Below are positions 49,821 to 60,060 of a DNA stretch of 64,000 nucleotides, piece after piece. Each line of letters opens with the position of its first letter. Position 1 is the first letter of the stretch. The DNA is from Georgenia yuyongxinii. GTDB lineage: Bacteria; Actinomycetota; Actinomycetes; Actinomycetales; Actinomycetaceae. Position numbers and translations under genes: made by a program. The stretch spans positions 1,240,001 to 1,304,000 of the forward strand of contig NZ_CP040915.1 of the NCBI RefSeq assembly GCF_006352065.1, written 5' to 3'. A model generated the notes under the pieces. It was not told where the DNA came from. It ran no database searches and saw nothing but the letters and a program-made list of their open reading frames with translations.

Positions 49821-49909
49821 GGAGTGGTGACCGTGATGCGCGGATCCGGCAGCGAGCCGTGCGTCGGTCTCCGACGCCGCGCGCGCAGTGACCTGCCAGG
49901 ATGACGGTC

Positions 49910-50908
49910 ATGAGCCTGACGATCGGTTATGCAGCGGCGCTGGAGCAGTTCGCGCCTATGGAGGCGGTGGAGTACTCCGCCATCGCTGAGCAGCACGGCT
50001 TCTCCGGGGTGATGGCGGCGGACCACTTCCAGCCCTGGACGCCTACGCAGGGGCAGGCGGGGTTCGTGTGGAACGTGCTCACCGCCGTCGCCGAGCGCAC
50101 GCGCGGCGACCTCGGTCCCGGGGTGACCGCGCCGACGTTCCGCTGGCACCCCGCGATGGTGGCGCAGGCCTCGGCGACGCTGGCGGCGATGTACCCGGGC
50201 CGGCACTGGCTTGGGCTGGGCTCGGGAGAGGCGCTCAACGAGCACATTCTCGGGCAGTACTGGCCCGAGGCACCTGAGCGGATCAACCGGATGTTCGAGG
50301 CCATCGAGATCATCCGCAAGCTCTTCACCAACTCCGCGGCGGGCAAGGACACGAAGCATGCCGGGACGTTCTACAAGCTTGAGTCCACCCGGTTGTGGAC
50401 GATGCCGGACCAGGCGCCGCCGATCCTGGTAGCGACCGGCGGGCCGGTGACCGCCAAGCGGGCCGGCAAGCACGCCGACGGCCTGATCACGGTGGGGGCG
50501 CCCCTGGAGAAGATCGGGAACCTCTTCGAGAAGTTCGCTGCAGGTGCGAAGGAAGCCGGCAAGGACCCCGAGGCGATGCCCAAGGTGCTTCAGCTGCACC
50601 TGTCCTGGGCGCCGACCGATGAGGAGGCACTGGCCAACGCGCTCGACCAGTGGCCCAACGGCGGGATGAAGTTCCCCAAGGCGGACATCCGCTCCCCGTT
50701 CGATTTCGCGGCGATGGCCAAGTTGGTGCGGGAGGAGGACTTCGCCGGCCGCATGGTGATCTCGGCGGACCCGGACGCGCACCGGGCGGAGATCCAGCGC
50801 TACGTCGACCTCGGGTTCGACCGGATCTACCTGCACAACGTTGGCCGCAACCAGGCCGAGTGGCTCGAGGTCTTCGGACGCGACGTCCTCCCGAACCTCG
50901 CCCGATGA
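49910..50908 (+). CDS. LLM-class F420-dependent oxidoreductase
   Basis: TIM-barrel luciferase-like enzyme (332 aa) close to the F420-dependent glucose-6-phosphate dehydrogenase/TIGR03557 group. The F420-type marks are [11 protein letters not shown], the ADHFQPW segment, the [10 protein letters not shown] phosphate/F420 loop and [16 protein letters not shown]. It overlaps the cofE start by 4 bp (ATGA), which directly ties it to F420 metabolism. The substrate is not determined. ATG 49901 is an alternative start. Confidence 0.88.
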
Positions 50909-51768
50909 GCGCGCAGGAACCGATCGAGCGCGGGAACCCCGACGCACCGACCGAGCGCGGGAACCCCGACGCACCGACCGAGCACGAGCCCTCCGACGCC
51001 ACCGCGCCGGCAGCGATGGTGCTCGCTCAGGCGCCCGACGGCGTGCCCACGATCACCAACGGGGACGACCTCGCCGCTCGCCTCACACCCGTCCTTGCCG
51101 CGCTCACCTGGCCGGACGGCACGACCGGCGTCGCCGAGGGCGACGTCGTGGTGGTGGCCTCCAAGGTCGTCGCCAAGGCGGAGGGGCGGCTGGTCGCCGC
51201 GCGTGACGCCACCGAGCGCGACCAGGTGATCGCGGGGGAGACCGTCCGGGTGGTCGCCACGCGCGAGCGGCCTGATGGGTCCGTGCTGCGCATAGTCGAG
51301 AACAGGCAGGGCCTCGTGATGGCGGCCGCCGGCGTCGACCTCTCCGACGTGCCCGCCGGCACTGCTCTGCTGCTCCCCGAGGACCCGGACGCCTCCGCTC
51401 GACGCCTGCGCCGCGGGCTGCATGCACGTCTGGGAGTGCGGCCCGGCGTCCTGATCACGGACACAGCCGGCCGTCCGTGGCGCCGGGGGGTGGTCGACAT
51501 GGCCATCGGCGCCGCCGGGGTGCGGGTGCTGGCCGACCACCGCGGACGCCATGACGCCTACGGACGCGAGCTGCAGGTCACCGTCGTCAACCTGGCCGAC
51601 GAGATCGCCGCCGCCGCCGAGCTGGTCAAGGGGAAGGCCGCCGGGCGGCCGGTCGCCGTCGTGCGGGGCATGGCCCACGCCGTCACCGTCGAGGACGGCG
51701 ACGGCGCCGCGACCCTGATCAGGCCCCCTGCCGAGGACATGTTCCGCAAGGGCGTCAGCGAGGAGTGA
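50905..51768 (+). CDS. cofE: Coenzyme F420-0:L-glutamate ligase
   Basis: CofE (287 aa) adds gamma-linked glutamates to F420-0, the last step of F420 synthesis. Conserved blocks are [69 protein letters not shown] and the C-terminal EDMFRKG. It is a single CofE domain without the nitroreductase domain of mycobacterial FbiB. The N-terminus holds a duplicated ERGNPDAPT encoded by two 27-bp repeats (50926-50979). It is coupled to the LLM gene and convergent with the F420-0-type ABC importer. Confidence 0.93.
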
Positions 51769-51840
51769 GCCCGCCGCGACCGCGTTGGGCGCGTGTCAGG
51801 CGGCGCCGGGACGGTGGTCACCCCGCAGTCGGCCGACCGA

Positions 51841-52848
51841 TCAGGCGGGGTCGAAGACGAGCAGGTCTCGCCCGCCGGCGACCACGCGGTGCGCCCGAAC
51901 ACCGTAGACCGCACTGACCAGCTCGGCGGTGAGCACCTCGCCCGGGTGACCCGCGGCGACCACACGGCCGGCGTCCAGGACCAGCACGTGGTCGCAGGAT
52001 CGCAGCGCGTGGTTGAGGTCGTGCAGGGCGGCGAGCACCGTCACGCCGTCGTCGGCTAGCTCGCGCGCCAGGCCGAGCACGGCGAGCTGGGCGGCGACGT
52101 CGAGGTGGTTCGTAGGCTCGTCGAGCAGCAGCACCTGAGGTTCCTGCGCCAGCGCCCTGGCAAGGTGCACGCGTTGACGTTCCCCGCCCGACAGGGTCGC
52201 GAAGTCACGGCCGGCGGTGGCCCCCGCGCCCGTGCGGGCCATCGCCCGATGAGCGACGTCAACATCGGCGACCGAGTCCCCGCCCCAGCGCGGACGGTGC
52301 GGGGTGCGGCCCAGGAGGACGACGTCGAGCACGTCGTGGGCGACGTCGGAGGCGGCGTCCTGCTCGACCAGGGCGAGCGCGCGGGCGCGCTGGCGGCGGG
52401 TCAGACGGGTCAGCTCCGCCCCCGAGAGCAGGAGGGTGCCCTGGGCCCGGGGGAGGGCACCGACCAGTAGGCGCAGGAGCGTGGACTTCCCGGCGCCGTT
52501 GGGGCCGACGACGGCGCACACCGCGCCGGCCGGGACGGTCGCGTCGACGCCGTCGAGGATGGTGACCGGGCCGGCCGCGTAGGTCAGGGCGGCGATGTTG
52601 AGGGCCGGGACACGGTCAGCTGCGTCCGCCGTCGAGCTGGAGTAGGCGCCGGTGGGCCCGAGCGTGGCGGCTGCATGGTCGAGGCTGGCCGCTGTCTGGT
52701 CGCGGGTGGTGGCCGGCTGGTCGAGGTCAGCGGCCTGCTGGTCGACGGCGGCGGCCGCATGGTCGAGGCTGGCGTCTGACCGATGATGTGCGGCGTACGC
52801 GCCGTCGAGCGCGACGGACCCACGGGCGGCGTCTGGTTGTGTGCTCAT
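51841..52848 (-). CDS. ABC ATPase of putative F420-0 importer
   Basis: FecE/BtuD-like ATPase (335 aa): Walker A VVGPNGAGKST, signature LSGGERQR, Walker B LLLDEPTNHLD, and the switch His in LHDLNHA. It belongs to the three-gene cassette that TIGRFAMs names as a putative F420-0 transporter, here facing cofE. The first 80 residues are a degenerate Asp/Ala/Gln repeat (DHAAA, DQQAADLDQ) not found in the family. The start is nevertheless supported by the ATGA overlap with the permease stop. Confidence 0.85.
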   Translation of the reverse strand: MSTQPDAARGSVALDGAYAAHHRSDASLDHAAAAVDQQAADLDQPATTRDQTAASLDHAAATLGPTGAYSSSTADAADRVPALNIAALTYAAGPVTILDGVDATVPAGAVCAVVGPNGAGKSTLLRLLVGALPRAQGTLLLSGAELTRLTRRQRARALALVEQDAASDVAHDVLDVVLLGRTPHRPRWGGDSVADVDVAHRAMARTGAGATAGRDFATLSGGERQRVHLARALAQEPQVLLLDEPTNHLDVAAQLAVLGLARELADDGVTVLAALHDLNHALRSCDHVLVLDAGRVVAAGHPGEVLTAELVSAVYGVRAHRVVAGGRDLLVFDPA

Positions 52849-54164
52849 TCCCGGCCCCTTCGGCGCAGCAGCACCGCGAACACCGGCGCACCGATCGCAG
52901 CAGTGAGGATGCCGACGGGCAGCTCACGCGGCTCGAACATGCTCCGAGCCACGGTGTCTGCGAGCAGAAGGAAGATCGCCCCGCCCAACGCGGCGACCGG
53001 CAGCAAGCGGTGGTGCCGCCCACCCACCAGGAGCCGGACGGCGTGCGGCACGACCAGCCCCACGAACCCGATCGACCCGGCAACCGAGACCAGCAGGGCC
53101 GTCAGCAGCGCGCCCGCCCCCAGCAGCACCCACCGCGTCCGGGTCACGGCTATGCCCAGCGAGGCGGCCGAGACGTCCCCGAACGTGAAGGCGTCGAGCG
53201 TGCGGCCCTGGGCTGCGAGGAACGTGCCCACCACGGCGGTCGCGCCCACGGCGAGCCACGCCTCGGACCAGGTGGCCCCGCCGAGCGAGCCCATGAGCCA
53301 GGAGAGGATCTCGCGGTAGGAGTCGCCGGTGGCGGACCAGAAGATGACGAAGCTGACGATGGCGGAGCCCAGCTGGGCGACGGCCACCCCGGCCAGGACC
53401 GTGCGCACCGGGGAGAGTCCGCCGTCCCGCCGGGCGGCCAGCGCCAGGGTCACGACGAGGGCGGCCAAGGCGCCGACGAACGCGGCGACCGGCAGCGCCG
53501 CGGACAGGCCCAGCACCAGCACCAGCACCGCGCCGACCGAGGCACCCGACGAGACGCCCAGCAGGTAGGGGTCCGCCAACGGGTTTCGGGTGAGCGCCTG
53601 CATCACCGCGCCCACCACGGCCAGACCGGCACCGACAGCGGCCGCGGCGAGCACCCGCGGGGCACGCCCCTGCCAGATGATCGCGTCCTGGATGACCGTG
53701 AGCGGATCCGCCGGGCAGGTGACCCCGGGCCCGGCCGCGGTGCACACGTGGTGCCAGGCCGAGGCCCACACCTCGCCGACGGTGATGTCCGCCTGTCCCA
53801 GCGTGACGGCCCAGCCGGCCGTCGCGGCGAGCACCACGGCCAGGCCGAGCAGGACGGCGCCCGGCAGCAGGCCCCGGCGGGACACCCCGGCCGCGCCTGC
53901 TGGCGGTCGCGTGTCTGCCTGTGGCCGAGCGTCCACGGGCGGTCGCGTGTCTGCCTGTGGCCGAGCGTCCACGGGCGGTCGCGTGTCTGCCTGTGGCCGA
54001 GCGTCCACGGGCGGTCGCGTGTCTGCCTGTGGCCGAGCGTCCACGGGCGGTCGCGTGTCAGTCGGCGGCCGCGGGTCTGCCGGAGGTCGGACTACGGCGC
54101 CGCTCTCGGCGACCACGTCTGAGGCAGCTGCGGCATCCGGTCCGCTCCGCGACGCCGACCTCAC
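52845..54164 (-). CDS. FecCD-type permease of putative F420-0 importer
   Basis: BtuC/FecCD-family permease (439 aa) with about ten helices and the typical WQGRAPRVLAA, MQALTRNPLADPYLLGVSSG and GFVGLVVPHAVRLLVG blocks. Before the first helix lies a Pro/Arg/Asp-rich cytoplasmic extension of about 85 residues, which contains four copies of a 12-residue unit, RPPVDARPQADT. The GTG at 54164 overlaps the stop of the binding-protein gene (GTGA). Confidence 0.87.
   Translation of the reverse strand: MRSASRSGPDAAAASDVVAESGAVVRPPADPRPPTDTRPPVDARPQADTRPPVDARPQADTRPPVDARPQADTRPPVDARPQADTRPPAGAAGVSRRGLLPGAVLLGLAVVLAATAGWAVTLGQADITVGEVWASAWHHVCTAAGPGVTCPADPLTVIQDAIIWQGRAPRVLAAAAVGAGLAVVGAVMQALTRNPLADPYLLGVSSGASVGAVLVLVLGLSAALPVAAFVGALAALVVTLALAARRDGGLSPVRTVLAGVAVAQLGSAIVSFVIFWSATGDSYREILSWLMGSLGGATWSEAWLAVGATAVVGTFLAAQGRTLDAFTFGDVSAASLGIAVTRTRWVLLGAGALLTALLVSVAGSIGFVGLVVPHAVRLLVGGRHHRLLPVAALGGAIFLLLADTVARSMFEPRELPVGILTAAIGAPVFAVLLRRRGRE
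53902..54059 (-). repeat. 36-bp in-frame minisatellite
   Basis: Four 36-bp units start at 53902, 53938, 53974 and 54010, with a 14-bp partial fifth at 54046. They appear identical and encode the 12-residue repeat at the N-terminus of the FecCD permease. The near identity means recent expansion. Confidence 0.92.
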
Positions 54165-55231
54165 GTCCCCGCCTCGAGCTCCGTTAGCTGGGCGGCCAGG
54201 TCCGTGACGGCCCCGACGTTGCGGACCCCCGCCTCGGTGGCCGGGAACGGCACGGTGAGGTAGCGGCCTTCCTGCACGGCGGGGAGCGCCGCCGTCACCG
54301 GGTTGGACTCGAGCACCTCGATCTTGTTCGCCGCGGTGTTCCACGCCGAGTCCACGAGCACGATGACGTCCGGCTCACGTTCGGCGACGGCCTCCCAGGC
54401 CAGCGACGTCCACGTGTCCGCCACGTCACCGGCCACGTTGTCCAGCCCTACTGCGTCCATGATCATCTGCGGCGCCCCGATGCCGGCACCGACGAACGGC
54501 GTGTCGGACCCGGAGGAGTACCACAGCGCGCTCAGGCCGGTGTCGGAGGGAACGACCGCCTCGAGCTCCGCGCGCTGCTCGGCGACCAGGGCGGCGGCGG
54601 CCTCCGGCTCGCCGAGCACCGCGCCCATCTCCTCGATCTCCGCGAACACGAGGTCGAACGTCAGCCGCTCCGGCTGGTACTCACCCTTGCAGGCCGACGG
54701 CGCGACATAGGTGGCGATGCCCAGATCGGCGTACATCGCGCGCTCGCCGGCTCCGTCTGCGGAGAGGTTGGACTCCCATCCGGCGTACACCAGGTCCGGC
54801 TCCAGGTCGAGCACCGCCTCGGCGGAGGGGTTCTTCTCGGCAAGCACCGGGGGCTCGGCCGCACCGGCGAGCTCGGTCGGGATCGCGCCGTCGGAAAATG
54901 CGGTGCCTGCGAGCCGGTCACCGGCCCCGAGCGCGAGGACCATCTCTGTCGCGGAGGACTTGATCGTCACGATGCGCTGCGGCGGGGCATTCACGGTGGT
55001 CTCCACGCCGCAGGTCGTCACCGAGAGCGGGAACCCTCCCGCGTCCGGTTTCGCGGACGGTTCGGCGGAGGTGCCCCCGGCAGGGCCCTCCGGCACGGCA
55101 GACGCACTCCCACCGGGCCCGTTCGGCGCGGCGGTGCCCGCGCCGCAAGCCGCCAGAACCAGGGCGGCGCCGGCGAGGACGGCGACGACGGCGGGGGTGG
55201 TGCGGCGGCGGACGTGGACGTGACCGGGCAC
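54161..55231 (-). CDS. Binding lipoprotein of putative F420-0 importer
   Basis: BtuF/FepB-type substrate-binding lipoprotein (356 aa). The signal peptide ends in LVLAAC with lipid Cys29. A Gly/Ser/Pro linker leads to a periplasmic-binding fold (PPQRIVTIKSSATEMVLALGAGDRLAGTAF). The GTG at 55231 has TGGAG upstream; the in-frame ATG at 55306 would bury the signal. It is first in the operon with permease and ATPase. Vitamin B12 or a siderophore are alternative ligands by fold, but the cofE neighbourhood favours F420-0. Confidence 0.85.
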   Translation of the reverse strand: MPGHVHVRRRTTPAVVAVLAGAALVLAACGAGTAAPNGPGGSASAVPEGPAGGTSAEPSAKPDAGGFPLSVTTCGVETTVNAPPQRIVTIKSSATEMVLALGAGDRLAGTAFSDGAIPTELAGAAEPPVLAEKNPSAEAVLDLEPDLVYAGWESNLSADGAGERAMYADLGIATYVAPSACKGEYQPERLTFDLVFAEIEEMGAVLGEPEAAAALVAEQRAELEAVVPSDTGLSALWYSSGSDTPFVGAGIGAPQMIMDAVGLDNVAGDVADTWTSLAWEAVAEREPDVIVLVDSAWNTAANKIEVLESNPVTAALPAVQEGRYLTVPFPATEAGVRNVGAVTDLAAQLTELEAGT

Positions 55232-55707
55232 GGGGACTCCAGGTGGTGGAGGAGGGCCGGTCGCGAGGGTCACAGCGCCCACACGCCGGTGGCGGGAACG
55301 GGCCATAGGCCCACGTCCAGGCCCACTCGCCGGGCCATGCCCGGCCCGGGGTCCGTGGCGATCCTACTCACTGGTGCCCGGCCGGGACCCGCTTGTCCGT
55401 AACGCCCCGGAAGGTCTGGGCGCTCTGGTACGTTCCGAGACCACCGACGCGTGGAAGCGTCGGCAGAACGCCGCGTATCGCGCCGCCGGGGCTGCTTTCG
55501 CACCGTGCCGACGGCGCACCTGAGGTCCTTGTGGCCGCCGACACCTGCGGTGCGGTGCCGGCCCGGCCCCCGATGCGACTGCGCCCGGCTGGCCCGGGAC
55601 AGCCAGACCCAACCGTGCCGGCTGGTCCGGCACGGCCCCCACCGGTTGACGCGGGCTGGTCGGGGCCGATCTGTCGACGCGTCTCAGAGCCACGCGGAGG
55701 AATCTCG
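55232..55707. other. Divergent control region between two importers
   Basis: This 476-bp gap separates the F420-0-type importer (minus) and the dihydropyrimidinase operon (plus). TAGGAT on the minus strand near 55360 is a -10 candidate. For the plus operon TTGACG (55646-55651) and ATCTGT (55669-55674) are 17 bp apart. A 9-bp perfect hairpin (55613-55621 with 55627-55635) lies just upstream of that promoter. No B12 riboswitch motifs are seen and no gene. Confidence 0.5.
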
Positions 55708-56556
55708 ATGACAACCGTCAAGGTCGCCCTGACCCAGACGCCCTGGACCGGCGACCGGGAGTCGATGACCCGGCTGCACGAGGACTTCGCGCGGCAGGCT
55801 GCCGCGCAGGGTGCTCAGATCATCTGCTTCCAGGAGCTCTTCTACGGGCCCTACTTCGGCATCACGCAGGACACGAAGTACTACGACTTCGCCGAGGGTG
55901 TCGAGGGGCCGACCACACGGCGGTTCGCCGCGCTTGCCAAGGAGCTCGGCATGGTGATCGTCCTGCCGGTCTACGAGGAGGAGCAGCCCGGCATCCTGTA
56001 CAACACCGCGGCCGTCATCGACGCGGACGGGACCTACCTGGGCAAGTACCGCAAGCACCACATCCCGAACCTGCCGAAGTTCTGGGAGAAGTTCTACTTC
56101 CGCCCCGGCAACCTCGGCTACCCGGTGTTCGACACCGCCGTCGGGCGCATCGGCGTCAACATCTGCTACGACCGGCACTTCCCCGAGGGCTGGCGCGCGC
56201 TGGGCCTGGCCGGCGCACAGATCGTCTTCAACCCCAACGCCACCGCCCCGGGCATCTCCAACCACCTGTGGGAGATCGAGCAGCCCGCCGCGGCCATCGC
56301 CAACGGGTACTTCGTCGCGGCCTCCAACCGGGTCGGCGCCGAGACCAACGAGTACGGCGACGACGCCGTCACCTTCTACGGCAGCTCCTACGTCGTGGGC
56401 CCGGACGGGCACTTCGTGGGCGACTGGGCCTCGAAGACGGACGCGGAGGTCAAGGTCTGGGACGTCGACCTGGACCAGATCCGTGAGGTCCGCGAACGCT
56501 GGCAGTTCTTCCGCGACCGCCGCCCCGACGCCTACGACGCCATCGTCGAGCCCTGA
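55708..56556 (+). CDS. Nitrilase-family N-carbamoyl hydrolase
   Basis: C-N hydrolase (282 aa) of the beta-ureidopropionase/N-carbamoyl-amino-acid amidase branch, with catalytic Glu43 (FQELFYGPYF), Lys116 (KYRKHHIP) and Cys153 (NICYDRHFPEG). It would release ammonia and CO2 from a carbamoyl amino acid such as N-carbamoyl-beta-alanine. GAGGA precedes the ATG. It is first in an operon whose second gene, dihydropyrimidinase, makes exactly such substrates. Confidence 0.9.
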   Translation: MTTVKVALTQTPWTGDRESMTRLHEDFARQAAAQGAQIICFQELFYGPYFGITQDTKYYDFAEGVEGPTTRRFAALAKELGMVIVLPVYEEEQPGILYNTAAVIDADGTYLGKYRKHHIPNLPKFWEKFYFRPGNLGYPVFDTAVGRIGVNICYDRHFPEGWRALGLAGAQIVFNPNATAPGISNHLWEIEQPAAAIANGYFVAASNRVGAETNEYGDDAVTFYGSSYVVGPDGHFVGDWASKTDAEVKVWDVDLDQIREVRERWQFFRDRRPDAYDAIVEP

Positions 56557-56570
56557 GGAGGGGACAGTCG

Positions 56571-57989
56571 ATGAAGACGCTCATCACCGGGGGCACGGTC
56601 GTCAACGCCACCGGCGCCACGCCCGCCGACGTGCTCATCGACGGCGAGACCATCGCCGCCGTCGTCGCCCCCGGCTCGACCCTGCTCGGGTTCGACCTGG
56701 CCGCCAACGTGGACACCGTCGTCGACGCCTCCGGCAAGTACGTCATCCCCGGCGGCATCGACGCGCACACCCACATGGAGATGCCCTTCGGGGGCACCTT
56801 CGCCTCCGACACCTTCGCCACGGGAACGACGGCGGCCGCCTGGGGTGGCACGACGACCATCGTGGACTTCGTGGTCCAGTACGCCGGCGAGAACCCGCTC
56901 GAGCAGTACGCCGCGTGGCACGAGAAGGCCGCCGGGAACTGCGCCATCGACTACGGCTTCCACCAGATCCTCTCCGACGTGCAGGACTCCTCGCTCACCG
57001 CGATGGACGAGCTCGTCGCCGAGGGCGTCACGAGCTTCAAGCTCTTCATGGCCTACAAGGGGGTGTTCCTCTCCGACGACGGCCAGATCGTCAAGGCCAT
57101 GCAGAAGGCCGCGGACAACGGCTCGCTGGTGATGATGCACGCCGAGAACGGCTCGGTGATCGACCTGCTCGTCCAGCAGGCTGTCGCCCGCGGCGACACC
57201 GCGCCCTATTTCCACGGCCTGACCCGGCCCTGGCAGGCGGAGGAGGAGGCCACGCACCGGGCGATCATGCTGGCCAACCTGACCGGGGCCCCGCTGTACG
57301 TGGTCCACGTCTCCGCCAAGCAGGCCGCCGAGCAGATCGCGCAGGCCCGCGACCGGGGCCAGAACGTCTTCGGGGAGACCTGCCCGCAGTACCTCTACCT
57401 CTCCCTCGAGGAGCATCTCGGGGCACCTGGCTTCGAGGGGGCGAAGTGGGTGTGCTCCACGCCGCTGCGCGCCCGTGCCGAGCACCACCAGGACCACATG
57501 TGGCGCTCGCTGCGCACCAACGACCTGCAGATCGTCTCCACCGACCACTGCCCATTCTGCATGAAGGGCCAGAAGGACATGGGGGTGGGGGACTTCTCCA
57601 AGATCCCCAACGGCATCGGCGGCGTCGAGCACCGCATGGACCTGATCTACCAGGGCGTGGTGACCGGCGAGATCTCCCTGGAGCGGTGGGTGGAGCTGTG
57701 CTGCACGACGCCGGCCCGCATGTTCGGTATGTACGGCCGCAAGGGGGTCATCGCCCCTGGCGCCGACGCCGACATCGTCGTCTACGACCCCAACGGGCAC
57801 ACCAGCATCGGGCTGGGCAAGACCCACCACATGAACATGGACTACTCCGCCTACGAGGGCTTCGAGATCGACGGGCACGTCGACACGGTCATCTCCCGCG
57901 GCAACGTCCTGGTCGACGACGGCGAGTTCCGCGGTCGGGTCGGCCACGGCCGGTACGTCAAGCGCGAGCTCTCCCAATACCTGATCTAG
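56571..57989 (+). CDS. hydA: Dihydropyrimidinase/hydantoinase
   Basis: Cyclic amidohydrolase (472 aa) opening dihydrouracil, dihydrothymine or hydantoin rings. The metal centre is visible: His66 and His68 (GGIDAHTHME), the carboxylated Lys157 (SFKLFMAYKG), His190 (MMHAENG), the His in VVHVS and Asp in STDHCPF. Its product is the substrate of the preceding hydrolase, 14 bp upstream. An LLM oxidoreductase follows by 32 bp. Confidence 0.94.
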   Translation: MKTLITGGTVVNATGATPADVLIDGETIAAVVAPGSTLLGFDLAANVDTVVDASGKYVIPGGIDAHTHMEMPFGGTFASDTFATGTTAAAWGGTTTIVDFVVQYAGENPLEQYAAWHEKAAGNCAIDYGFHQILSDVQDSSLTAMDELVAEGVTSFKLFMAYKGVFLSDDGQIVKAMQKAADNGSLVMMHAENGSVIDLLVQQAVARGDTAPYFHGLTRPWQAEEEATHRAIMLANLTGAPLYVVHVSAKQAAEQIAQARDRGQNVFGETCPQYLYLSLEEHLGAPGFEGAKWVCSTPLRARAEHHQDHMWRSLRTNDLQIVSTDHCPFCMKGQKDMGVGDFSKIPNGIGGVEHRMDLIYQGVVTGEISLERWVELCCTTPARMFGMYGRKGVIAPGADADIVVYDPNGHTSIGLGKTHHMNMDYSAYEGFEIDGHVDTVISRGNVLVDDGEFRGRVGHGRYVKRELSQYLI

Positions 57990-58021
57990 CCGCCCCTCCC
58001 GAACCTCATCGAGGAGTACGC

Positions 58022-59038
58022 ATGGACTTCGGCGTCGTCCTGCAGACCAACCCGCCATCCTCCCGCGTGGTCGAGCTCGCCCGCCAGGCCGAGACGCACG
58101 GCTTCAGCCACGTGTGGACGTTCGACTCGCACCTGCTGTGGCAGGAGCCCTACGTCATCTACAGCCAGATCCTCGCCGCCACCCGCAAGGTGATGGTCGG
58201 GCCCATGGTCACCAACCCGATCACCCGGGACGTGACGGTGACGGCGTCGACGTTCGCCACCCTGAACGAGATGTTCGGCAACCGCACCGTCTGCGGACTC
58301 GGTCGCGGGGACTCGGCCGTGCGGGTGCTCAACGGCCGCCCCGCGTCGCTGGCCCAGCTGCGGGAGTCCGTGCACGTCATCCGTGAGCTCGCGAACTCCC
58401 GGCCGGTGGAGATCAACGGCTCGACCGTGCGCTTCCCGTGGGCGCACGACTCGCGCCTGGAGGTGTGGGTGGCCGGGTACGGGCCCAAGACCCTGGCGCT
58501 GACGGGCGACGTCGCCGACGGGTTCATCCTCCAGCTCGCCGACCCCGACGTGACGGCGTGGACGATCCAGGTGGTGCGCGAGGCGGCCGAGAAGGCCGGG
58601 CGCGACCCCGACGCGCTGCAGTTCTGCGTGGCCGCGCCGATGTACATCGGCCAGGACCGTGCGCACATGCACGACCAGTCCCGGTGGTTCGGCGGCATGG
58701 TCGGCAACCACGTGGCCGAGCTGGTCGCACGGTACGGGCAGGACTCGGACTTGCCCAGGTCTCTGACCGACTACGTCGCGGGGCGCACCGACTACGACTA
58801 CAACGAGCACGGGCGGGCCGGCAACACCCACACCGAGTTCGTGCCGGACGACATCGTCGAGCGGTTCTGTGTCCTGGGCACCTGGCAGGAGCACGTCGCC
58901 AAGCTCACCGAGCTGCGCGGGCTCGGCGTGACCCAGTTCGCCGGCTACCTCATGCATGACAACAAGGAGGAAACCCTGCGCCAGTACGGCGAGCACGTCA
59001 TCCCCGCGATGCGCGACCTGGTCCTCGCGAAGGTATGA
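58022..59038 (+). CDS. LLM oxidoreductase of dihydropyrimidinase operon
   Basis: Luciferase-like TIM-barrel enzyme (338 aa) of the TIGR03842-like group annotated as F420-dependent. It begins MDFGVVLQTNPPSS and shows GPMVTNPITRDV, CGLGRGDSAV and VWVAGYGPKTLALTGDVADG. Flavin instead of F420 cannot be excluded by sequence alone. GAGGAG precedes the ATG. It lies between hydA and the importer genes and overlaps the permease start (ATGA), so it is part of the same pathway; it could reduce or oxidise the pyrimidine or hydantoin ring. Confidence 0.85.
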   Translation: MDFGVVLQTNPPSSRVVELARQAETHGFSHVWTFDSHLLWQEPYVIYSQILAATRKVMVGPMVTNPITRDVTVTASTFATLNEMFGNRTVCGLGRGDSAVRVLNGRPASLAQLRESVHVIRELANSRPVEINGSTVRFPWAHDSRLEVWVAGYGPKTLALTGDVADGFILQLADPDVTAWTIQVVREAAEKAGRDPDALQFCVAAPMYIGQDRAHMHDQSRWFGGMVGNHVAELVARYGQDSDLPRSLTDYVAGRTDYDYNEHGRAGNTHTEFVPDDIVERFCVLGTWQEHVAKLTELRGLGVTQFAGYLMHDNKEETLRQYGEHVIPAMRDLVLAKV

Positions 59039-60060
59039 GCACACCGCCGGCCCGCGCCGCCCGGTCCGCGCCGGACGGCCTGGTCCCCGACGTCGCGGCG
59101 GCGGTCTCGGCCGAGCCGGGCGTCCCAGGCGCCACCCCGGTGCCCGGGGGCTCGCGGTCACCCAACCGGTGGCCCTGGGCGGGCGGGTCGTGGCCCCGCT
59201 GGGTGCGGACGGCGGTGCTCGGGATCGCCGGTGTGCTGATGCTGGCCCTGGTCTGGGAGCTGTACAAGCTCCTCGGCCCGGTGGAGGGCGTCAGCGTCGG
59301 CGAGACGCGGGTGCTGCCCCGCACGGACGAGCGGTCCATGCCGCACGTGTGGGAGATGGTGTCGCGGCTGTTCCAGCCGGCGACCGGGGCGCCCGGGGCG
59401 CCGCCGCTGCTCGTGCCGCTGCTGAGCGCATCGGTGTTCACCCTGGCGGTCGCGATGCTCGGCTGGTTCGTGGGCGTCGTCGTCGGGGCGGCCCTCGCCG
59501 TCCTCATGCTGCGCTGGCGGCTCGCGGAGTCCGCCGTCCTGCCGTGGGTGATCCTCAGCCAGACGGTGCCGCTTGTCGCCCTCGCACCGCTGGTGGTCGG
59601 CTGGGGCGGGCGCATCCACATCGGTTCCCTGGAGTGGGAGCGGTGGATGTCGGTGGCGGCCATCTCCGCCTACCTGTCGTTCTTCATGGTGGCGGTCGGG
59701 ACGCTGCGGGGGTTGAAGGCGCCCGACGCGGTGCACGTAGACCTGTTCCGCAGCTACGCCGTTGGCTGGTGGCGCACCCTCGTGCGGTTGCGGCTGCCGG
59801 CGGCGGTCCCCTTCCTGCTGCCCGCCCTGCGCCTGGCGGCCGCTACCTCCATCGTGGGGGCGATCGTGGCCGAGGTCTCCACCGGCACCGCCGGCGGGAT
59901 CGGCCGCCTCATCATCAGCTACGCCCAGTCCGCCAGCGGCGACCCGCCCAAGCCCTGGACCGCGATCTTCGCTGCCGCCGCCCTCGGGCTGGTTGCCGCC
60001 GGGCTTGTCTCCCTCGTCGGGACGGGCCTGCGTCGCTACCGCTTCTCGGAGGTCTCATGA
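59035..60060 (+). CDS. ABC permease, SsuC/ThiX type (first)
   Basis: Inner-membrane permease (341 aa) of the nitrate/sulfonate/taurine/pyrimidine class. A 50-residue Pro-rich N-terminus precedes the helices. The EAA-like coupling segment is seen in FRSYAVGWWRTLVRLRLPAAVPFLLPALR. It overlaps its neighbours on both sides by ATGA, so the operon is tightly coupled. With the second permease it would form a heterodimeric channel. Confidence 0.88.
   Translation: MSTPPARAARSAPDGLVPDVAAAVSAEPGVPGATPVPGGSRSPNRWPWAGGSWPRWVRTAVLGIAGVLMLALVWELYKLLGPVEGVSVGETRVLPRTDERSMPHVWEMVSRLFQPATGAPGAPPLLVPLLSASVFTLAVAMLGWFVGVVVGAALAVLMLRWRLAESAVLPWVILSQTVPLVALAPLVVGWGGRIHIGSLEWERWMSVAAISAYLSFFMVAVGTLRGLKAPDAVHVDLFRSYAVGWWRTLVRLRLPAAVPFLLPALRLAAATSIVGAIVAEVSTGTAGGIGRLIISYAQSASGDPPKPWTAIFAAAALGLVAAGLVSLVGTGLRRYRFSEVS

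Follow-up and report, generated by a model that had tools for sequence, protein, structure and literature searches.

An ABC importer encoded opposite cofE in Georgenia yuyongxinii may supply FO in place of FO synthase

The 64,000-nucleotide stretch of the Georgenia yuyongxinii genome analysed here (contig NZ_CP040915.1, referred to as C1, positions 1,240,001–1,304,000; hereafter the window) encodes an ATP-binding cassette (ABC) importer facing cofE, the gene for F420-0:glutamate ligase. The common view of F420 is that each user makes the cofactor for itself. With a little more confidence than doubt, and from comparisons of sequences, we propose that this cassette imports the core of F420, mostly as the deazaflavin FO, and stands in for FO synthase; CofC, CofD and CofE would finish the cofactor and enzymes of the luciferase-like monooxygenase (LLM) class would use the product.

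On the + strand an LLM-class oxidoreductase resembling F420-dependent glucose-6-phosphate dehydrogenase (49901..50908; NCBIfam profile TIGR03557, 296.1 bits, cut-off 210.4) shares the letters ATGA, a 4-bp overlap, with cofE (50905..51768, 287 amino acids; TIGR01916, 227.6 bits, cut-off 180.65). Convergent to this pair, the stop codons of cofE and the ATPase gene being 72 bp apart, lies the - strand cassette: a substrate-binding lipoprotein with a class III fold and a GTG start (54161..about 55231; TIGR03868, 436.6 bits, cut-off 392.4), a FecCD/BtuC-type permease with a proline-rich, tandemly repeated N-terminal extension (52845..54164; TIGR03869, 455 bits, cut-off 437.35) and the importer ATPase (51841..52848), for which the best NCBIfam family is TIGR03873. 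The lipoprotein and permease genes overlap by GTGA, and those of permease and ATPase by ATGA. This is the layout described in the original prediction, which was made from the letters of the stretch, with 4 bp at each cassette junction; its assignment of the cassette to the F420-0 transporter families holds at cut-off for two of the three parts. The motif LVLAAC in the binding protein is presumably its lipobox. Together, the BtuF-like fold of this protein and the FecCD-type permease place the cassette among the type II (BtuCDF-like) ABC importers. Since the importer/cofE/LLM arrangement is repeated in the loci of many relatives, its occurrence in the window is not a matter of chance. The nearest named binding proteins, among the best 80 of 187 loci, are those of Georgenia species (69–78% over the best segment).

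The genome, 4,171,640 bases on a single contig, is 98.01% complete. Searches of all of it with the cofG and cofH profiles, each of which exceeds its cut-off in three of 14 control genomes, gave no match. Its eight radical S-adenosylmethionine (SAM) hits (PF04055) are MoaA (two copies), MiaB, PflA, HemW, LipA, RlmN and an Rv2578c-family protein; as all of these are other enzymes, no FO synthase is hidden among them. On these results we rejected a complete F420 pathway elsewhere in the genome, the finding which the original prediction had named as contrary to its idea of salvage.

As predicted, the window itself holds no cofC, cofD, cofG or cofH (cofC was not searched for genome-wide). The genome's only TIGR01819 match over cut-off, a cofD at C1:266,707–267,711 (C1:266.8 kb; 327.8 bits, cut-off 257.45), lies about 1 Mb away, adjoining a cofC (C1:267,704–268,369; TIGR03552, 145.9 bits, cut-off 105). 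A convergent nitroreductase gene (C1:268,360–268,965) adjoins the pair; this separate protein matches best the FbiB C-terminal domain family TIGR03553, yet with only 52.1 bits against a cut-off of 249.55. CofE lacks such a domain as a fusion, NF009810 being aligned at profile positions 16–248 of 449, where the protein stops. Two earlier expectations, that cofE occurs here without other F420 genes and that the organism merely adds glutamates to imported F420-0, find no support: cofD and cofC are present above curated cut-offs, with the nitroreductase beside them. Judged by its genes, the organism seems able to convert FO to F420 and unable to make FO, which would be the only step missing from the pathway.

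The distribution of these genes was followed in two overlapping sets of genomes, an order sample (149) and a class sample (296; 23 shared, union 422); here FO synthase was represented by the cofH model only, cofG having been searched in the Georgenia genome. In the order sample the binding protein was over cut-off in 36 of 149 genomes, cofH in 24, cofD in 68 and cofE in 81. Over cut-off, all 36 importer genomes possess cofE and 20 possess cofD; none has cofH at that level, partial matches of about 20 bits being seen in two (G088 and G091). The 16 importer genomes lacking cofD gave at most weak, YvcK-like hits. The class sample contains the importer in 30 of 296 genomes and cofH in 189; the 212 genomes in which cofH gave any match at all include none of the 30. 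Its 23 new importer genomes show no cofH at an E-value of 0.001, and cofD is over cut-off in 21; that of G320 scores 202 bits and that of G341 is split in two pieces. For the union the figures are 59 genomes with the importer and 210 with cofH (three counted in both samples), the two never occurring together above cut-off against 29.4 genomes expected (Fisher p = 3e-20, or 0.0012 for the order sample alone, kinship being ignored). The 59 are spread, by our reading, over 26 genera; 41 have cofD over cut-off, two have it below cut-off or split, and 16 are without it. The salvage by import that had been proposed is thus upheld in part: the lack of an FO synthase and the exclusion between importer and cofH speak for it, and the piece that is missing here is FO and not F420-0.

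Members of one genus (g102) fall on both sides of this exclusion, G320 and G236 having the importer without cofH, 11 others cofH without an importer above cut-off, and G276 neither. In g33 the importer occurs without cofH in G097; G069, G083 and G369 have cofH-like matches (about 250 bits and below cut-off in the first two) and no importer above cut-off. Family f38, which has large genomes and which we suspect to be the Micromonosporaceae, has the importer without cofH in 19 of 21 listed genomes. There are two exceptions. In G166 cofH is over cut-off and the top match to the binding protein, at 328 bits, falls short of its own cut-off; G382 (75% complete) shows a cofH match of 1.3e-59 and only a weak match to the binding protein. 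Among the importer genomes of f38 (e.g. G310, G274, L106 and L125) a cofD-cofE pair was present in 17 of 17 intact cofD regions fetched, the importer being located elsewhere. A literature search on FbiC with Micromonospora returned the review PMC8498797 only.

Retention of cofC and cofD here without a recognisable FO synthase, and of cofD in many other importer genomes, could also mean that an enzyme unrelated to FbiC/CofGH makes FO inside the cell and that the importer recovers FO or F420-0 which has leaked. The eight radical-SAM hits include no candidate for such an enzyme, and so strict an exclusion of importer and cofH would then be unexpected; we attach very little weight to this explanation.

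Genes that are coupled to importers often act on what is imported. We compared 156 importer loci (L023–L178), comprising 80 named loci (the best 80 of 187), for which cofD status covers the vicinity of the importer only, and others from the surveyed genomes, several of them chosen because cofD was known to be there. In 22 of the 156 a cofD accompanies a good ATPase match. In ten of these cofD overlaps the ATPase gene by 4 bp, its start codon falling inside the ATPase stop, and takes fourth place in the importer operon: L085 (Cellulomonas denverensis), L093 (a Cellulomonas metagenome-assembled genome), L099 (Compostimonas suwonensis) and the loci of genomes G130, G060, G084, G145, G028, G077 and G125. 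The junctions read ATGA or GTGA, the open cofD frames are of 319–355 residues, and the loci are not copies of each other, since by a simple alignment score even the closest pair reaches 0.85. Of the other 12 loci, nine have cofD close by on the same strand and three (L054, L081 and L149) have it on the opposite one. Where cofE was found it is mostly on the strand opposite the importer, an exception being L157. CofD acts on FO, as stated in a portion of the review PMC8498797, and its coupling to the importer ATPase in ten loci points to FO, the substrate of CofD, as the cargo.

Given that the binding protein shares its fold with those for B12, haem and siderophores, the importer might instead carry a corrinoid, haem or a siderophore and have F420 genes as neighbours by chance or for another reason. 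This is hard to square with the absence of cofH over cut-off from all 59 importer genomes, where 29.4 would be expected to have it, with the presence of cofE in 36 of 36 and with the ten cofD-ATPase overlaps, and we regard it as very unlikely. The window lipoprotein is only 17% identical to BtuF (1n2z), and its importer differs from BtuCDF and the haem and siderophore importers in being linked to F420 genes. Among the nearest known proteins is 4mlz, a periplasmic binding protein from Jonesia denitrificans, which was compared with the lipoprotein by sequence and fold only.

A more serious competitor, which we nevertheless hold to be unlikely, has the importer carry F420-0 (or polyglutamylated F420) everywhere, with cofD acting in a second salvage route on FO that diffuses in. 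It does not account well for cofD, and not cofE, being the gene that overlaps the ATPase in ten loci, nor for cofD over cut-off in 41 of the 59 genomes without recognisable cofH. Several observations favour it and at the same time weigh against FO as the cargo. The 16 of 59 importer genomes which have cofE and lack cofD are confined to F420-0 and the forms that follow it, FO being useless to them by known enzymes; they include G067 and G137, the only two further importer genomes in the family of the window. In a tree of 66 binding proteins the window falls into a starred clade of 12 (99/99), nine members of which come from cofD-less genomes. The lack of cofD requires seven changes on this tree, at least five of them forced by starred branches. 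Nor did we find a switch of cargo between the importers of cofD-less genomes (12 rows) and those of genomes with the actinobacterial cofD type (group A, 23 rows, which includes genomes whose cofD does not adjoin the importer: G054, G415 and, in the 66-row tree, G088). Only positions 156, 308 and 320, which lie outside the 81 near-invariant positions, consistently separate the two sets, in a comparison of 58 binding proteins made before the last eight rows of the tree were added. Finally, FO is described in a passage of PMC12282290 as neutral and as diffusing out of cells, and may for that reason need no importer.

To these must be added difficulties of other kinds. The window ATPase scores 336.3 bits, under the cut-off of 372.4 of what is still its top family. 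We know of no ligand for any member of the importer family. As several loci had been chosen for their cofD, the ten coupled loci do not give a rate; the rate of coupling of cofD to the importer is seven in 41 cofD-bearing importer genomes; among the named loci cofD is close to the importer in 10 of 80 and coupled in 3 of 80. In the Georgenia genome cofD is not linked to the importer at all, and in the cofD tree (built without the split row L141 and the genes of G234 and G415) it belongs to a separate, long-branched clade of eight rows (100/100, stem 1.74). The importer-coupled cofD genes are in another clade, of 22 rows (99/99), distinct both from this one and from the remaining rows.

The separate clade consists of the cofD of the present genome, L081 and six further genomes; the seven of its genomes that were searched throughout gave no cofH match (7/7). 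A cofC adjoins in 8 of 8 and a nitroreductase was seen in four. The three members of the window's binding-protein clade that are not from cofD-less genomes, namely the window, G013 and G063, carry this cofD type. It is as if the cofD-cofC pair with its convergent nitroreductase (G000 C1:266707-268965; L002:1414-3672) had been acquired to use FO.

The near-uniformity of the binding proteins suggests that a single site serves both types of genome, those needing F420-0 and those needing only FO. The simplest readings would be an importer that recognises the deazaflavin part common to both compounds, or one for F420-0, with diffusion as the way in for FO. Because the 16 genomes without cofD have nearly the same binding protein as the others, the FO importer that we favour is best described as a deazaflavin importer which probably accepts F420-0 in addition. 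A search of the literature, limited to open-licence papers, found none on the uptake of F420 or FO. What was consulted of PMC11104420 reports FO in the supernatant of M. rhizoxinica; according to passages of PMC12282290 S. venezuelae possibly leaves it in its spent medium too, and the fluorescence of a Streptomyces fbiC mutant rises when it is given the spent medium of the wild type. Extracellular FO and the fluorescence of the mutant help the importer and diffusion readings alike.

Under the FO-import reading the lipoprotein would capture a deazaflavin, most often FO, outside the cell, and the BtuCD-like permease and ATPase would bring it in. CofC and CofD would then join FO to an activated C3 acid, and the nitroreductase adjacent to them would probably reduce the intermediate if that acid is phosphoenolpyruvate. 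CofE, encoded opposite the importer, would polyglutamylate the product, and the F420-type LLM enzymes beside the cassette would use the finished F420. The importer would in this way replace FO synthase. What the sequences show is which genes are present, the lack of FO synthase in this genome, the exclusion between importer and cofH, and the ten overlaps of cofD with the ATPase gene; the cargo, the direction in which it is moved, the step given to the nitroreductase and the use of the product by the LLM enzymes are inferred.

The window resembles the families TIGR03868, TIGR03869 and TIGR03873, named as a putative F420-0 ABC transporter, in its binding protein and permease and in the adjoining cofE and F420-type LLM genes; it departs from them in the score of its ATPase. 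These families reportedly go back to Selengut and Haft, and the founding genomes are said to have kept cofE and none of the other F420 biosynthesis genes. That trait is not shared by the present genome, which is without cofG and cofH and has cofC and cofD above their cut-offs; with these two genes available, F420-0 need not be the cargo. A broader proposal, on which we are close to evenly divided and incline slightly to doubt, is that FO serves as a common vitamin: many lineages of actinomycetes, among them 19 of the 21 listed genomes of f38, would have lost FO synthase, kept cofD and cofE, and come to use the FO of their neighbours through the importer, the "F420-0 transporter" families being FO or deazaflavin importers. 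If this is true, FO (perhaps with F420-0) is a traded microbial vitamin, the importer replaces FO synthase in 59 of the genomes sampled, from 26 genera, the way in which F420 users are counted from genomes changes, and three annotation families need a corrected cargo.

The Georgenia CofD aligns with that of Methanosarcina mazei (3c3d) over 296 residues (6.2e-70) and with FbiA (6uvx; 3.8e-52). A second CofD-family match in the genome was rejected as cofD, being YvcK-like and scoring only 19.6 bits with TIGR01819; the open reading frames (ORFs) next to it are presumably RapZ and WhiA. Among the CofC/FbiD guanylyltransferases the Georgenia CofC is nearest to 7p97 (3.5e-20), followed by FbiD 6bwg (6.3e-11). 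As 7p97, the nearest solved CofC, is a 3-phosphoglycerate (3PG) enzyme, a route by way of 3PG-F420 was considered. Ser162 of Mrhiz-CofC is given as diagnostic for 3-phosphoglycerate in a part of PMC8764529; the Georgenia protein has Gly, not Ser, at the presumed equivalent, where the placement of gaps against 7p97 is ambiguous. It retains the RFGPxS stretch of 6bwg/FbiD, and the 3PG-F420 route was for this reason set aside, though not excluded. A side chain derived from phosphoenolpyruvate or 2-phospholactate appears more likely from the sequence, and with phosphoenolpyruvate the nitroreductase would be the reductase that is required.

The LLM gene at 49901–50908 matches the FMN-type family TIGR03885 as well, at 314.6 bits, which is under the cut-off of 398.7 and carries a lower E-value than the match to TIGR03557. 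Its relatives in the PDB are 9hav (3.4e-125), the F420-dependent glucose-6-phosphate dehydrogenase 5lxe (3e-63) and FGD1 3b4y (4.4e-61); 9hav–9hay, named only as "luciferase family protein", are nearer to it than any F420-dependent glucose-6-phosphate dehydrogenase. A literature search for 9hav found no paper. A second F420-type LLM enzyme, encoded at 58022..59038 (+ strand), scores 583.9 bits with TIGR03842 (cut-off 295.45) and is likely to be a user of F420. It belongs to a cluster beside the importer (55700–60060) that also comprises a gene which we take to be nitrilase-like, a dihydropyrimidinase (TIGR02033) and an ABC permease-like ORF. In many loci a relative of the TIGR03842 enzyme stays close to the importer, and with the cluster this suggests an F420-dependent catabolic pathway for pyrimidines or hydantoins. 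Other than the known genes, it is mainly ORFs that presumably encode a short-chain dehydrogenase/reductase-like and a glycosylase-like protein that recur close to the cassette among the matches listed.

Three genes of the module, those of the permease, CofE and the ATPase, have repeat-bearing N-termini. In the permease the extension (53902–54117, coding on the - strand) consists of 36-bp repeats, in 4.4 copies with a 100% match, encoding DTRPPVDARPQA units ahead of the first membrane helix. The tandem repeats near the N-termini of CofE and the ATPase, at 50919–51004 and 52659–52778, have units of 27 bp and 21/42 bp.

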